This document shows positions 33,640 to 41,587 of a stretch of DNA of 64,000 bases, in pieces. This DNA comes from Tenggerimyces flavus (GTDB lineage Bacteria > Actinomycetota > Actinomycetes > Propionibacteriales > Actinopolymorphaceae). The translations under genes and the position numbers were made by a program. The DNA is taken from assembly GCF_016907715.1 (NCBI RefSeq), contig NZ_JAFBCM010000001.1, positions 1,426,001-1,490,000 of the forward strand, written 5' to 3'. Within the stretch, counting starts at the first letter, position 1. Each line of letters starts with the position of its first letter. The notes beneath the pieces were generated by a model. That model saw nothing but the letters and a program-made list of their open reading frames with translations. It was not told where the DNA came from and made no database searches.

Positions 33640-36048
33640 TTAGTCGCCGCCACCGTTCCCGTTGCCGTCCCCGTCGCCGTCGCCGTCGCCATCGCCGCCG
33701 CTGTCCCCGTTCCCGTCGCCGTCCCCGTCGCCGTTCCCATCCCCGTCGCCATCGCCGTTGCCGTCGCCGCGGGACAGCCGGATCTCGACGGTGCTCCCCG
33801 TCCCGTACTCCGACCCGCCACTCGGCGACTGCGCCGCGACCGTGCCTTCCTCCCGCGAGGAGGACACCGGCTCGCCGACGGTCACCTCGAAGCCGGCCTC
33901 GCGCAGCATCCGCGTCGCCGTACGTTCGCTGTATCCCAACACCCACGGCACATCGGACTGCTCGCCCTCGACGACGACGTCCTCGGGGTCCTCGAAGTCC
34001 GGGCTCGACTTGCCGTCGAGGGCTCCCTCCATCGCGCCGAGCCAGATCGGTCCGGACAGCTTGCCGCCCCACACCTCCGCGTCGGCCAGCCGCTTCCCGC
34101 CGACCCGCTGGCCACGCAGGCCGCGCAGCGGCGAGTGCGCGTCCTGCACGACCGCGTACGTCGCGAGGTCGGTTGTGTAGCCGGCGAACGAGACCGCCTT
34201 GCGGTCGTTGTTCGTACCCGTCTTGCCCGCGACCTGACGCCCCTCCATCGCCATGTCCTTGCCGGACCGGCTGGGGTCGTTGCCGTCGACGACCTGACGC
34301 AAGGTGTAGTTGACAGCGTCGGCGACGTGCTCCTCGAGCACCCGCTTGCAGCCCGCGGCCTTGACCGGAACGGCCTTGCCCTTGCGGTCGAGCACCGACG
34401 TCACCGCGATCGCGCGGCAGTGCACACCACGGGCGGCGAACGTGGCGTACGCCTCGGCCATCGACAGCGGCGTCACCTCGTTCACGCCGAGGACGAACGA
34501 GCCGACCTGCTCCAGCGGCTTGCCGTCGCCCCGCTTGATGCCCGCCTCGGTCGCGATGCGCCACGGGTCGCACAGCCCGGTCTCGCGCTCGAGGTTGACG
34601 AACGCGGTGTTGACCGAACGCGTCGTCGCGCGGATCAGGTCGATGCTGCTGGCACCGGGGTTGGACGAGTTCCCGATCCGCCACGGGTCGTCGTCGCGCC
34701 ATGGACGGCTGCCATCGCACCTCGAGATCGGCTCGCGCGCGGGCAGCACCATCGAGTTCGGCGACGACACCTGGTGGCTGAGCGGGATGCCCTGCTTGAT
34801 CGCGGCCGCGAGCACGAACGGCTTGAACGTCGAACCCGGCTGCACACCGATGCCGCCGCCGTCGTTCTGGCCGACGTTGTAGTTGACGAACGTGTTGCCG
34901 TCGCCCCTGCCGTACCCCTTCGACTGGGCCATCGCCTTGATGTGCCCGGTCCCCGGCTCCACCATCGAGACCGCGGAGAAGACCGGGTCGGTCGGGCGGA
35001 TCTTCTTGCGGATCGACTTCTGCGCCGCGTCCTGCGCCTTCGGGTCGAGCGTGGTGCGGATCTCGAGGCGGCCTTCGTAGAGGTACCGCCGGCGGAGCTC
35101 CCGCGTCGCGCCGAGCGCCGGGTCGTCCAGCAGCGTCTCGACGGCGTACTCGCAGAAGAACGGGTACTTGGAGCTGAAGCAGCCGGTCTTCGTCTCGCTG
35201 ATGTCGAGGCCGAGGCCCTGCTTGCTCAGGCGCTCGTAGTCGGCCACGGTGATCGACTTCTGGTCGACCATGCGGGACAGCACGAAGTTGCGGCGGGCGA
35301 CGACCTCCAGCGGGTCCTTCTCGACGCTGAAGCCGTTCGGGTTGCGGACCATGCCGGCGAGCATCGCGGCCTGCGGAACGGTGAGCTTGTCGGCCGTCGT
35401 GTTGAAGAAGTGCTTCGCCGCGGCCTCGACGCCGTAGATGTTCGCGCCGAAGAAGACGATGTTGAGGTACTTCTCGAGGATCTGGTCCTTGGAGTATTTC
35501 TCCTCCAGGCCGACCGCGAAGCGGAGCTCCTGCAGCTTGCGTTCGTACGTCTCGTCGATCGCCGCCTTCTGCTCGGCGGGGGTGCTGGCGGACTCGAAGA
35601 GCACGAGTTTGACGTACTGCTGCGTGATCGACGAGCCACCCTGCTGCATGCCGCTGCCCTGCTGGTTGCGGATCAGGGCGCGCATGGTGCCGCGCAGGTC
35701 GAGCGGGCCGTGCTCGTAGAACCGGGCGTCCTCGACCGCGACGATCGCCTGCTGCATCGGCTTGGAGATCTTGTCGAGGCTGACGTTGATGCGGTTCTCG
35801 TCGTAGAACGTGGCGAGCACGTTGCCCTTGCTGTCGTACATCGTGCTGCGCTCGGGCAGCGGCGGCTCCTTGAGCGTGCTCGGGAGCTTCTCGAAGTTGT
35901 CGATCGCCGCCTGGGTGGACATGCCGGTCATCCCGGCGAGCGGGATGACGAGGCCCGCGACGAGAACGCCGGCGACGCCGCTGACCACGAGGAACATGAA
36001 CAGCTGAGTCACAACGCCGCGTTCGTCCCGCCTTCGTACTCTGCCCAT
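33640..36048 (-). CDS. Class A penicillin-binding protein with PASTA domain
   Basis: An 802-residue bifunctional peptidoglycan synthase. After one membrane helix (~residues 15-40) the GT51 glycosyltransferase has the catalytic Glu in VAVEDARFYEHGPLDLRGT and QGGSSITQQYVKL. The transpeptidase has PGSTFKPFVLA (Ser, near 404), SVNTAF and GKTGTNN (near 607). A single PASTA domain follows (~696-756, VPWVLGYSERTATRMLREAG), then a ~40-residue tail of alternating Gly, Asp and Asn. ATG 36048 is chosen just before the basic segment GRVRRRDERG; there is no strong ribosome site. It is the PonA type. The Gly/Asp tail is unusual and resembles low-complexity calcium-binding runs. Confidence 0.95.
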   Translation of the reverse strand: MGRVRRRDERGVVTQLFMFLVVSGVAGVLVAGLVIPLAGMTGMSTQAAIDNFEKLPSTLKEPPLPERSTMYDSKGNVLATFYDENRINVSLDKISKPMQQAIVAVEDARFYEHGPLDLRGTMRALIRNQQGSGMQQGGSSITQQYVKLVLFESASTPAEQKAAIDETYERKLQELRFAVGLEEKYSKDQILEKYLNIVFFGANIYGVEAAAKHFFNTTADKLTVPQAAMLAGMVRNPNGFSVEKDPLEVVARRNFVLSRMVDQKSITVADYERLSKQGLGLDISETKTGCFSSKYPFFCEYAVETLLDDPALGATRELRRRYLYEGRLEIRTTLDPKAQDAAQKSIRKKIRPTDPVFSAVSMVEPGTGHIKAMAQSKGYGRGDGNTFVNYNVGQNDGGGIGVQPGSTFKPFVLAAAIKQGIPLSHQVSSPNSMVLPAREPISRCDGSRPWRDDDPWRIGNSSNPGASSIDLIRATTRSVNTAFVNLERETGLCDPWRIATEAGIKRGDGKPLEQVGSFVLGVNEVTPLSMAEAYATFAARGVHCRAIAVTSVLDRKGKAVPVKAAGCKRVLEEHVADAVNYTLRQVVDGNDPSRSGKDMAMEGRQVAGKTGTNNDRKAVSFAGYTTDLATYAVVQDAHSPLRGLRGQRVGGKRLADAEVWGGKLSGPIWLGAMEGALDGKSSPDFEDPEDVVVEGEQSDVPWVLGYSERTATRMLREAGFEVTVGEPVSSSREEGTVAAQSPSGGSEYGTGSTVEIRLSRGDGNGDGDGDGNGDGDGDGNGDSGGDGDGDGDGDGNGNGGGD

Positions 36049-36100
36049 GTGGTCCAACCCTAGGTGGTTCGTGTGCTTACCGCAGCGGCGGAATGCAGGT

Positions 36101-36131
36101 GCGGATTCCTGGGAGTTCACTGAGAATCCGC
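36101..36131. promoter_or_regulatory. Inverted repeat between PBP and GNAT genes
   Basis: GCGGATTC and GAATCCGC form an 8-bp dyad with a 15-nt spacer in the 86-bp gap between the divergent starts at 36048 (minus) and 36135 (plus). It may be an operator. Confidence 0.35.
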
Positions 36132-38738: not shown

Positions 38739-38751
38739 GAAGGTGCGAGGC

Positions 38752-39768
38752 GTGGCTCGCCTGACCCGGGCGCAGCAGCAGGACCGGACGCGGGCGGCGG
38801 TGTTGGCGGCGGCGCGGGCGGAGTTCGCCGCCCGCGGGTACGCCGATGCCAAGGTGGACCAGATCGCCGAGCGGGCCGAGCTGACCCGGGGCGCGGTCTA
38901 CTCGAACTTCCCGAGCAAGCGCGCCCTCTATCTCGCAGTGCTCGTCGACTCGCTCGACGACGCATCCGCCGCGGCCCAGCCGCTGGGCAGCGTGGCGGAG
39001 GCGCTCGGTGCGTTCGCCCGGGTCTGGTTCGAACGGTTGCCGCTGACCGGACACTCGCCCGCCGACGGGCGGCTACGGCTGCGTTCGCTCGCCGGCGTGG
39101 TCGACGACGAACGCGGCCGGGTGGTGCTCGGCCAGGTCGCCAGACTGGAGGCGCTGCTACTCGGCCGGGCGCTGGAGTCCCTCGACGCGCAGCCGATGCG
39201 GCGGGTGCGGCTCGCCGAGCTCGTGCTCACGTTGCTGAACGGGGTCGGCCAGCTCGCCGAGACCGCGCCGGGCTTCGGCGACCCGTTCGACGTGGCGCGC
39301 GCGTGCGAGCACCTCGCCGATCTCGACCTCGGCGATACCTGGGACCCGCCACACCTGGCGTTCGTCCGCTCGGCCGAGCTTGTCGACGAACCCTCGGAAG
39401 GCGACGACGGGCTCATGGTCGTGCTGGGCACGAGCCGGCTCGGAGCGGCCGAGGAGGCAATCCGCGCAGCCGGATCCGGCGAACTGGTCACGGTCGTCCT
39501 CGCGACGAACGACCGTGCCGAGCTGGGACGGTTGGTCGCTCTGCGGATCGGCGACCTGCTGGTCTGTCTGCGTCGCGTCTTCGGGCCCGACCCGGTGCCG
39601 CGGCTCCGCCTCGTTCTCGACAGCGAGGAGACGGGTGACGACAGCGAGGTCGCCGTCCGCGTCGCCCGCGGCCGGGTCGTCGCCCGAGCGCAGGGTCCCG
39701 GTGCAGGGCACGCTGTCGGCGTCGCTCAGGTACGCGGAATCCCCAACGTGGAGAGCAGATCCTCGTGA
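38752..39768 (+). CDS. TetR-family regulator with long extra C-terminal domain
   Basis: A 338-residue protein, well above the usual ~200. Residues ~1-190 are an ordinary TetR: VLAAARAEFAARGYADAKVD and ERAELTRGAVYSNFPSKRAL form the helix-turn-helix. From ~200 to the end is an extra domain with alternating strands and helices (LMVVLGTSRLGAAEEAIRAA, VTVVLATNDRAELGRLVALR) that I cannot assign. GTG 38752 has GGAAGG upstream; GTG 38743 is the alternative. It overlaps the convergent gene 39726-40316 by 43 bp and faces the PCD-VOC gene. Confidence 0.85.
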   Translation: MARLTRAQQQDRTRAAVLAAARAEFAARGYADAKVDQIAERAELTRGAVYSNFPSKRALYLAVLVDSLDDASAAAQPLGSVAEALGAFARVWFERLPLTGHSPADGRLRLRSLAGVVDDERGRVVLGQVARLEALLLGRALESLDAQPMRRVRLAELVLTLLNGVGQLAETAPGFGDPFDVARACEHLADLDLGDTWDPPHLAFVRSAELVDEPSEGDDGLMVVLGTSRLGAAEEAIRAAGSGELVTVVLATNDRAELGRLVALRIGDLLVCLRRVFGPDPVPRLRLVLDSEETGDDSEVAVRVARGRVVARAQGPGAGHAVGVAQVRGIPNVESRSS

Positions 39769-40316
39769 AGCTGGAACCAGATCGCATGGTACGAGGACGT
39801 GCTGTCGGCGAGGAACTCCAGCTCGCCCGCCTTCGCCCGCGCGAGTGCGCTGTCGAACCGCGCTCGGTAACGCGCGAAGCGCTCCAGCGCTGCCGCCAAC
39901 GCCGCGCAGATCGGGTCGACCCGCTGGTCCAGATCCAGGAACGCGCCCAACACGCGGCCGTCGTACGCCGAGTCGTCGTGGTCGCTCAGCTGCCAGGCCG
40001 CACACAGGTCGAGCAGCTCCGGGTTGAGCACGAGGAAGTCGTCGAGTGCCTTCGCCGTCGCGGTTCGAGCGCCCGCGGCGTCGAGCTCGGCGGAAGTGCG
40101 TTCCAGATCGACCGCCTTGCCGGTGTCCGTGATACCCCAGCCGCCGAAGTCACCCGGCAGGTGCGTGACCTGCCCGGCGACGGCGAGGTCGATCAGCTCC
40201 GACTCGACGTCGTCCGCGGGGAGGCCGGTCGCTTCGGAAAGCCTTGCCAGGCTGACGAATCCGACGCAGCGAAGCGTGTGGAGCACCAGGAGGTCGGTGC
40301 TGGTCGAGTACGGCAC
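39726..40316 (-). CDS. Winged-helix regulator-like protein paired with PPDK-like gene
   Basis: A 196-residue cytoplasmic protein. The first ~70 residues look like a winged helix (LLVLHTLRCVGFVSLARLSE, then GLPADDVESELIDLAVAGQV). The rest is helical and acidic, with DLCAAWQLSDHDDSAYDG. Its start codon is only 17 bp from the start of the divergent PPDK-like gene, and a shared -10 lies between, so the two are very probably one functional unit. DNA binding is inferred from the first domain. Confidence 0.6.
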   Translation of the reverse strand: MPYSTSTDLLVLHTLRCVGFVSLARLSEATGLPADDVESELIDLAVAGQVTHLPGDFGGWGITDTGKAVDLERTSAELDAAGARTATAKALDDFLVLNPELLDLCAAWQLSDHDDSAYDGRVLGAFLDLDQRVDPICAALAAALERFARYRARFDSALARAKAGELEFLADSTSSYHAIWFQLHEDLLSTLGIPRT

Positions 40317-40321
40317 GTGCC

Positions 40322-40328
40322 CAGGCTA
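40322..40328. promoter_or_regulatory. Shared bidirectional -10 between leaderless genes
   Basis: Within CAGGCTA the minus strand reads TAGCCT at -12 to -7 from GTG 40316, and the plus strand reads CAGGCT at -12 to -7 from ATG 40334. The two starts are so close that neither gene has room for a leader, and no Shine-Dalgarno is present. The plus-strand hexamer lacks the first T, so it is the weaker of the two. Confidence 0.45.
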
Positions 40329-40333
40329 CTCGA

Positions 40334-41587
40334 ATGAGCTGGATCCGCCAGCTGTCTCCGGAACTCGACGAGGACGCGAATGCCCTTGGCAGTAAGGCGT
40401 TCGGGCTCGTCGTCCTGCTGCGCCTCGGGCTGCCCGTGCCGCCGGCGTTCGTCATCGGCACGGCTGCTTGTCGCGCGTTCCTCCGGGACGGCCGGCCGCC
40501 CGACGGTCTCGTCGACGAGGTCGCGTCGGCAATCACCGCTCTTCCCGGAGCGGTGTCCGTGCGATCCGGGGCGGCGGTGTCGATGCCCGGCATGATGAGC
40601 ACGATCCTCAACGTGTCAACGGATATCGAGCCGATCATGCGGGCGATCGAGACGGTGTTCTCGTCCTGGAACACGCCCCGCGCGCAGACGTACCGCACGC
40701 TGCACGGCATCCCGCACGACAGCGGAACGGCGGTCGTCGTGCAGGCGATGGTGTACGGCGACCGCGACGAGCACAGCGGCAGCGGCGTCGCGTTCAGCCG
40801 GAATCCCAACACAGGTGAGCGAATCCCTTACGGAGACGTGCTGTTCGGCCGGCAGGGCGAGGCCGTGGTCTCTGGCCGTTCGACCACTGCTCCGCTGAGT
40901 GACCTCCAAGACGGGGAGCCCGCGGTCTGGCAAGCCCTGCTTGACGCCCTCGGACGGATCGAGGCGCACTACCGGGACGCGTGCTCGGTGGAGTTCACGT
41001 TCGAGTCGGGCCGGCTGTGGCTGCTGCAGGTACGGTCCGGCGGCCTGGTCGGCCGAGCGGCCGTACGTGTCGCGGTCGAGCTCGTCGACGAGGGTGTGAT
41101 CGACCGGGGCGAGGCAGTCGCGCGGGTCTCGCCGAAGCAGCTGGCGCACGTCCGTACGCCGCGCCTCGACCTAGACAAGGCGGACGTCCTCGCCCGCGGG
41201 ATCGGCGCCAGCCCGGGCGTCGCGATCGGGAAGGTCGCGACGACCGCGGATGCCGCGGTGCGGATGGCCGCGGACGGTCCGGTGATCCTGGTCCGGCCGG
41301 AGACCTCGCCATTGGATCTGCACGGACTCGCCGCCGCGGCCGGTGTCGTGACCGCGAAGGGCGGACCGACCAGCCACGCCGCGGTGGTCGCGCGGTCGAT
41401 GGGCAAGCCCGCCGTCGTCGGCGCCACCGGCCTCGCGCTCGAGGACGGCACGCTGGTCAGCATCGACGGAACGGGCGGCGAGGTCGTCCGCGGCCACGCA
41501 GCCGTCCTGACCGATGAAGAGGACCCGCACGTGGGCCGCCTGCTCGCGTGGGCCGAGGACGCTCGTTCTCGATTGCGCAAAGGATGA
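40334..41587 (+). CDS. PPDK-like protein lacking the PEP domain
   Basis: A 417-residue protein with the first two parts of pyruvate phosphate dikinase/PEP synthase. The ATP-grasp-like domain has ALGSKAFGLVVLLRLGLPVP, AVSVRSGAAVSMPGMMSTI, SGSGVAFSRNPNTGE and EFTFESGRLWLLQVRSG. The swivelling phosphohistidine domain has GGPTSHAAVVARSMGKPAVVG with the catalytic His. Full PPDK is about 870 residues; the C-terminal PEP/pyruvate barrel is absent, and the protein ends at a normal stop. It could phosphorylate another acceptor, as related rifampin phosphotransferases do. It is head-to-head with a winged-helix protein. Confidence 0.85.
   Translation: MSWIRQLSPELDEDANALGSKAFGLVVLLRLGLPVPPAFVIGTAACRAFLRDGRPPDGLVDEVASAITALPGAVSVRSGAAVSMPGMMSTILNVSTDIEPIMRAIETVFSSWNTPRAQTYRTLHGIPHDSGTAVVVQAMVYGDRDEHSGSGVAFSRNPNTGERIPYGDVLFGRQGEAVVSGRSTTAPLSDLQDGEPAVWQALLDALGRIEAHYRDACSVEFTFESGRLWLLQVRSGGLVGRAAVRVAVELVDEGVIDRGEAVARVSPKQLAHVRTPRLDLDKADVLARGIGASPGVAIGKVATTADAAVRMAADGPVILVRPETSPLDLHGLAAAAGVVTAKGGPTSHAAVVARSMGKPAVVGATGLALEDGTLVSIDGTGGEVVRGHAAVLTDEEDPHVGRLLAWAEDARSRLRKG

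Follow-up and report, generated by a model that had tools for sequence, protein, structure and literature searches.

A compact half of pyruvate phosphate dikinase and its winged-helix neighbor in Tenggerimyces flavus: a candidate VadK-like histidine phosphocarrier

Among the genes contained in the window (the whole stretch of Tenggerimyces flavus DNA analysed here, 64,000 nucleotides) are two divergent neighbors, one encoding a protein related to the N-terminal half of pyruvate phosphate dikinase (PPDK), called half-PPDK below, and the other a small winged-helix protein (Table 1). Only 17 bp separate their start codons, which requires either that the promoters lie partly within the genes or that the transcripts are leaderless; inspection of the gap by eye gave no clear result for promoter motifs. 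Beyond the winged-helix gene lies a gene for a TetR-family regulator, and the 3' ends of these two genes overlap. Further away on the reverse strand (33640-36120) is a gene for a penicillin-binding protein with transglycosylase, transpeptidase and PASTA domains and a long repeat tail rich in Gly, Asp and Asn.

Table 1. Features of the half-PPDK locus, in positions of the window
Feature	Position	Strand	Evidence
TetR-family regulator, 341 aa, long C-terminal extension	38743..39768	+	ORF call, Pfam, orthologue loci
Winged-helix protein, 196 aa: wHTH (about residues 1-84) and helical C-terminal domain	39726..40316	-	ORF call, AF2, structure matches, alignment
Gap between divergent start codons, 17 bp	40317..40333	.	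Half-PPDK and winged-helix genes
Half-PPDK CDS, 417 aa	40334..41587	+	ATG start; ORF call, Pfam, phmmer, AF2, Foldseek
ATP-grasp catalytic residues	Arg77 40562-40564; Glu220 40991-40993; Gln232 41027-41029; Arg234 41033-41035	+	Orthologue alignment
Junction at the missing subdomain 2, residues about 96-100	40619..40633	+	phmmer alignment gap; length classes
Phosphohistidine loop GGPTSHAAVVARS, residues 343-355	41360..41398	+	Translation, orthologue alignment
His348, catalytic His of GGPTSHAAVVARS	41375-41377	+	Orthologue alignment

The half-PPDK is made up of a PPDK-type ATP-grasp domain followed by a phosphohistidine swivel domain, and the PEP barrel is absent. In Pfam the two domains are matched by PPDK_N (PF01326, E 1.9e-38) and PEP-utilizers (PF00391, residues 316-382, E 7.6e-24), with no match to PEP-utilizers_C (PF02896) and nothing further after the PF00391 domain. 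By phmmer, residues 13-96 correspond to residues 14-111 of PPDK and residues 100-411 to residues 203-532, such that about 90 residues of PPDK (about 112-202, which we take to be its "subdomain 2") are absent, as is everything beyond about residue 532. Judged from this alignment, the ATP-grasp domain is itself reduced, which makes the protein shorter than a plain N-terminal half of PPDK. Its best relatives in the PDB are pyruvate phosphate dikinases, and PPDK 1kbl is the top Foldseek match (E 3.0e-41; TM 0.89 by query length) of its AF2 model (mean pLDDT 93.8, pTM 0.90); the two share the fold and the catalytic residues of the ATP-grasp and swivel domains, but the half-PPDK lacks both the PEP/pyruvate barrel and subdomain 2. 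Given the Pfam content, the skipped PPDK residues (about 112-202) and the confident PPDK-like model, the half-PPDK is a compact unit of an ATP-grasp domain and a swivel histidine. The preliminary description of the locus, which had reported an ATP-binding domain and a phosphohistidine loop within 417 residues and no barrel, is thus confirmed by Pfam, phmmer, AF2 and Foldseek, and its statement that the protein could not make PEP alone is borne out by the missing barrel. Loss of subdomain 2 could impair the use of ATP.

A scan of named genomes found 109 relatives, of which 80 were retained as loci: 62 actinobacterial half-PPDK loci (L070-L130 and L134), from hosts including Lentzea, Nonomuraea, Actinomadura, Kribbella, Streptomyces, Actinoplanes and Micromonospora, and 18 others (L131-L133 and L135-L149). 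Arg77, Glu220, Gln232 and Arg234, whose roles as catalytic residues we assume from PPDK, are kept in all 62 half-PPDK loci. His348 is kept in the 61 that are readable there (its region is masked in L128); loss of this histidine in orthologues, a point on which the preliminary description had staked its reading, is seen in none of them. Subdomain 2 is missing in 23 of the 62 orthologues, partial in 20 and of full length in 19, and the window protein therefore represents the most reduced form. Among the matches listed from 76 further genomes in the family and order of the window's host there is no orthologue of the same form, the strongest being full-length PPDKs. The PPDK regulatory position is occupied by Thr346 in the window protein, and among the 62 orthologues by Ala in 46 and Thr in 15 (one is masked); control of Thr346 by a kinase/phosphatase of the PDRP type was set aside, as PF03618 is absent from the genome and Ala prevails at that position. 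A different arrangement is found in 13 of the 15 deltaproteobacterial and related loci (L135-L149), where a barrel-less PPDK ATP-grasp and His unit forms the end of a frame of 1425-1500 aa; in one such frame (L135:7190-11476) the first ~930 residues have no Pfam match.

A missing barrel might be supplied by another gene, and the preliminary description had named a PEP domain encoded elsewhere, as part of a split gene, as the finding that would speak against it. None was found in the genome, in the 62 orthologue loci or in the window. In the one-contig genome of 8.52 Mb, a profile search with PF02896 gave matches at two sites, namely a full-length PPDK and a protein that we read by eye as a PTS fusion of the HPr/EI type, neither of them a barrel on its own. 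A query made from the barrel of this PPDK found nothing in the 62 loci or the window, while the positive control recovered five of five full-length PPDKs. The existence of this full-length PPDK would permit the half-PPDK to be a degenerate or split enzyme that borrows a barrel in trans. We regard this as very unlikely, since the full-length PPDK carries its own ATP-grasp and His domains, since none of the 62 loci holds a barrel, and since the catalytic residues of the half-PPDK are conserved rather than decayed.

Barrel-less half-PPDKs are a kind of protein already published: one of them, a truncated PPDK with an effect on the methylcitrate cycle, is VadK (Rv1127c) of Mycobacterium tuberculosis (PMC13400623). 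The available text of that report describes Mg/ATP-dependent autophosphorylation of VadK on His422, a requirement for His422 during growth on propionate, and pull-down of PrpC and PrpD by VadK; it also notes that Streptomyces, Nocardia and Rhodococcus have orthologues. Co-expression of the operonic partner Rv1126c improved the solubility of VadK, and the two were separated by a wash with 2 M NaCl (PMC13400623). In the working model, phosphorylated VadK and methylcitrate dehydratase compete for binding to methylcitrate synthase; as far as that text goes, autophosphorylation and binding partners are reported without a phosphate acceptor (PMC13400623). The preliminary description named neither this published kind nor the conserved TetR gene.

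The window protein shares with VadK the PPDK-derived ATP-grasp and phosphohistidine domains and the absence of a barrel; beside each lies a small gene, and these two small genes may correspond. In contrast to VadK, it is shorter (417 aa), lacks subdomain 2 and falls outside the VadK-type clade, and in its group the winged-helix gene is upstream or divergent rather than downstream, with a conserved TetR gene. Nor is there linkage to prpD: the sole MmgE_PrpD match in the genome (C1:2049236) is 583 kb from the half-PPDK gene. The mutagenic primers printed for VadK (PMC13400623) imply Ala at the position of Thr346, as in most orthologues of the window protein, which itself has Thr; the M. tuberculosis primer sequence had no match in 396 genomes. 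The NCBIfam model of the VadK type (NF004531) scores the window protein at 399.6 bits, under its cut-off of 456. In a tree of 49 rows (the window protein; 16 fetched half-PPDKs, of which 14 belong to the 62 and two are L041 and L042; 9 VadK-type proteins; 7 others; and 16 full-length PPDKs), the clade of the window protein (support 100/99) stands apart from the VadK-type clade (100/100), the latter being represented by mycobacterial and Rhodococcus rows and not by Rv1127c itself. Placed outside the VadK clade and below the model's cut-off, the window protein may differ from VadK in its activity. The data do not reject a common origin for the half-PPDKs as a whole (p-AU 0.134), and the tree is compatible with one truncation as well as with several. 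Two of its rows, L208 and L210, cluster with a full-length PPDK, from rows cut at the locus ends; the larger regions fetched for them (L226 and L225, respectively) reveal half-PPDKs.

A less expected finding is the constancy of the winged-helix gene in actinobacterial half-PPDK loci. A homologue adjoins the half-PPDK gene in all 62 actinobacterial loci as well as in loci L041 and L042. Of the 83 loci examined, the other 19, some of them shortened by contig ends, yielded no homologue; they comprise full-length PPDK loci (L043, L131 and L132), an archaeal locus (L133) and the 15 deltaproteobacterial or related ones. In 55 of the 62 the winged-helix gene is upstream on the same strand, with a 4-bp gene overlap in 39 of these (starts inferred from the alignment); in the other seven the genes are divergent as in the window, six of them with 26 bp between the start codons. 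Similar linkage was found in the genus of genome G172, which is probably Mycobacterium because most of its fetched half-PPDKs are 65-79% identical to that of M. avium (two are about 53% identical). A strong winged-helix match was present in 47 of 98 genomes of that genus, the rest having weak HTH-like matches or none, and in 29 of the 30 loci fetched from the 98 the half-PPDK lies beside the winged-helix gene (in one, L193, at a distance of about 0.8 kb); the exception, L183, has just 472 bp of contig ahead of the winged-helix gene. As a separate observation, a mycobacteria-like genome of 3.27 Mb (L227) has half-PPDK homology scattered over several frames, with the adjoining winged-helix gene in one frame.

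Starting from the winged-helix family instead, we found matches at E 1e-10 or better in 44 of 246 genomes of a class-wide sample. Among 28 winged-helix loci (including that of the window), 18 adjoin a half-PPDK; wider regions for 13 of the 18, including all those cut ahead of the stop, have a frame that ends shortly after the His domain, with no barrel. Next to six more lies a barrel-less dikinase of another type, about 390-423 aa long, which has PPDK_N and then PEP-utilizers (Pfam, on one full frame, to which the other five are 51-89% identical). No half-dikinase was detected within 8.5-10.5 kb regions around the remaining four (L212, L219, L222 and L223; wider regions L237, L234, L235 and L236). 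By titles and the beginnings of abstracts, with most subscription journals outside the scope, we found no description of one winged-helix family linked to two half-dikinase types, and to our knowledge the linkage has not been described before.

The winged-helix protein has two parts. Its AF2 model has a pLDDT of 95.1, and residues 1-84 give MarR-like wHTH matches (Z 11.6-13.8 over 72-85 residues); the structure-match list from the whole model is informative for these residues only, and nearly all listed PDB sequence matches are likewise confined to the wHTH. Foldseek alone gave no match to the model at E 0.001 or better, and Pfam DprA_WH falls just below its cut-off (22.7 against 22.9 bits). 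The wHTH-type fold is common to MarR-family regulators, from which the protein differs in carrying an additional C-terminal domain, which is helical and conserved and has two invariant histidines. In all 57 aligned sequences, F94, N98, W108, R146, Y150, H177, W180 and H184 of the C-terminal domain are invariant, as are L12 and G66 of the wHTH.

The MarR-like fold and the divergent arrangement across 17 bp would suit a winged-helix protein that acts solely as transcriptional regulator of the half-PPDK gene, with the enzyme acting alone. We consider this distinctly improbable for three reasons: the same-strand, mostly overlapping arrangement that prevails in 55 of the 62 loci; the C-terminal domain, whose conservation exceeds that of the wHTH in eight of nine distant relatives (L157 excluded; mean identity to the window protein 0.361 versus 0.287), although in 29 near relatives the two hardly differ (0.633 versus 0.616, the C-terminal domain being higher in 16); and fusions in two Rhodococcus plasmids, where the winged-helix region forms the C-terminal part of a PEP-utilizing protein (L154:10222-12603) and of an AMP-binding protein (L159:6438-8609), which argues against a pure repressor. 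The preliminary description had left open whether the winged-helix protein is partner or regulator; the survey of orthologue neighbors makes it a constant companion, for which a role as protein partner is likelier than one as regulator only, the two being compatible.

Plasmids also bear on the possibility of a different acceptor. In six of ten plasmid regions (L150, L151, L152, L156, L157 and L159; from M. avium, M. branderi, two Rhodococcus, S. atratus and Diaphorobacter) the half-PPDK gene is directly beside the winged-helix gene; in L153 and L154 a winged-helix gene or domain is 5-9 kb from it, in L155 a shorter gene annotated as a PEP/pyruvate-binding protein takes its place, and in L158 there is no half-PPDK in view. 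On the M. avium, M. branderi, Diaphorobacter and two Rhodococcus plasmids, the two genes are clustered with that of a "PEP-utilizing enzyme" about 500-580 aa long, and several of these clusters are surrounded by catabolic-looking genes; for the M. avium enzyme the match is to the C-terminal portion of proteins resembling rifampin phosphotransferase. Such clusters would fit a small-molecule dikinase of two or three parts, in which the half-PPDK would charge a separate HpeH/PpsA-like acceptor subunit and an alcohol or phenol would be phosphorylated. The nearest precedent for a split dikinase is HpeHI, which, like CreHI and the phenylphosphate synthase PpsAB, is described in the available part of the source as spreading dikinase chemistry over more than one chain (PMC12167813). 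In HpeHI, however, the ATP-grasp chain (HpeI) is separate from the chain that carries the His swivel and the acceptor domain (PMC12167813), whereas the half-PPDK has ATP-grasp and His domains on one chain. The genome of the window has no stand-alone PF00391 protein that could serve as an HpeH-like acceptor chain, its five PF00391 matches all belonging either to long multi-domain frames or to the half-PPDK gene itself, and in the 62 loci two PEP-utilizing queries match only the half-PPDK's own His domain. A small-molecule dikinase is thus an unlikely, if still serious, explanation for the window protein.

The preliminary description had suggested an antibiotic as acceptor, and nothing was found that points there. 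ATP-grasp and His domains are common to rifampin phosphotransferase, and the corresponding NCBIfam model does give a score of 58.9 bits, far under its cut-off of 999. By Pfam there is no drug-binding domain; no resistance gene occurs among the recurrent neighbor families that were identified (families present in few loci falling mostly outside these); and the POT transporter downstream of the half-PPDK gene is matched in none of the 62 orthologue loci. An antibiotic-inactivating phosphotransferase is accordingly the reading to which we give least credence, and the same absence led us to discard the transporter as part of the module.

The third conserved gene of the neighborhood is that for the TetR-family regulator, present in 54 of the 62 loci (55 with the window counted). 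A gene of the histidine-phosphatase superfamily (His_Phos_1; for example L070:11310-11897) occurs in 28 of the 62, nearly always directly downstream, and its product is a possible counter-enzyme to the half-PPDK; we rejected it as a required third part, as it is missing from the window and has a weak match in the genome (E 7.2e-6), and it is accessory at most.

Taken with the VadK precedent, these observations lead us to hypothesize, with a probability of roughly 60%, that the half-PPDK is an ATP-driven histidine phosphocarrier resembling VadK, working with the winged-helix protein as partner and serving an acceptor that is not pyruvate. Mg-ATP would bind the ATP-grasp domain, His348 of the swivel domain would become phosphorylated, and the phosphate would be handed from His348 to the acceptor. 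The half-PPDK and the winged-helix protein of the adjoining gene would act together as a unit of two proteins. The conserved C-terminal domain of the winged-helix protein probably serves for docking on the half-dikinase, for its regulation or for presenting its target; expression is probably under the control of the wHTH and of the conserved TetR gene. Autophosphorylation of the window protein, the first chemical step, is predicted by homology and well supported by it. We infer contact between the half-PPDK and the winged-helix protein because of their linkage and because of the remark on the purification of Rv1126c, which would itself belong to the winged-helix family. Onward transfer to an acceptor is presumed, as is a role in regulation and not in metabolism, and phosphate transfer is open to doubt because the working model for VadK, as the available text presents it, is one of binding to methylcitrate synthase (PMC13400623). 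The four class-wide winged-helix loci in which no half-dikinase was detected, and the plasmid regions L153, L154 and L158, where the half-PPDK is distant or not in view, also speak against the hypothesis.

A bolder form of the phosphocarrier hypothesis can be stated, which we regard as a long shot. At least two types of barrel-less half-dikinase would be served by one winged-helix family, whose C-terminal domain (Asn98, Arg146, His177 and His184) would be the phosphate acceptor; each pair would form a His-to-His phosphorelay that draws its phosphate from ATP-to-AMP chemistry, senses the energy state of the cell and acts as a switch on DNA binding or on a target enzyme.

If the neighbor of VadK belongs to the winged-helix family that is kept beside barrel-less dikinases across actinobacteria, this neighbor is the obvious missing piece of the VadK system, and one that is open to study in harmless soil actinomycetes; it would then show a route from a metabolic enzyme to a signalling carrier.
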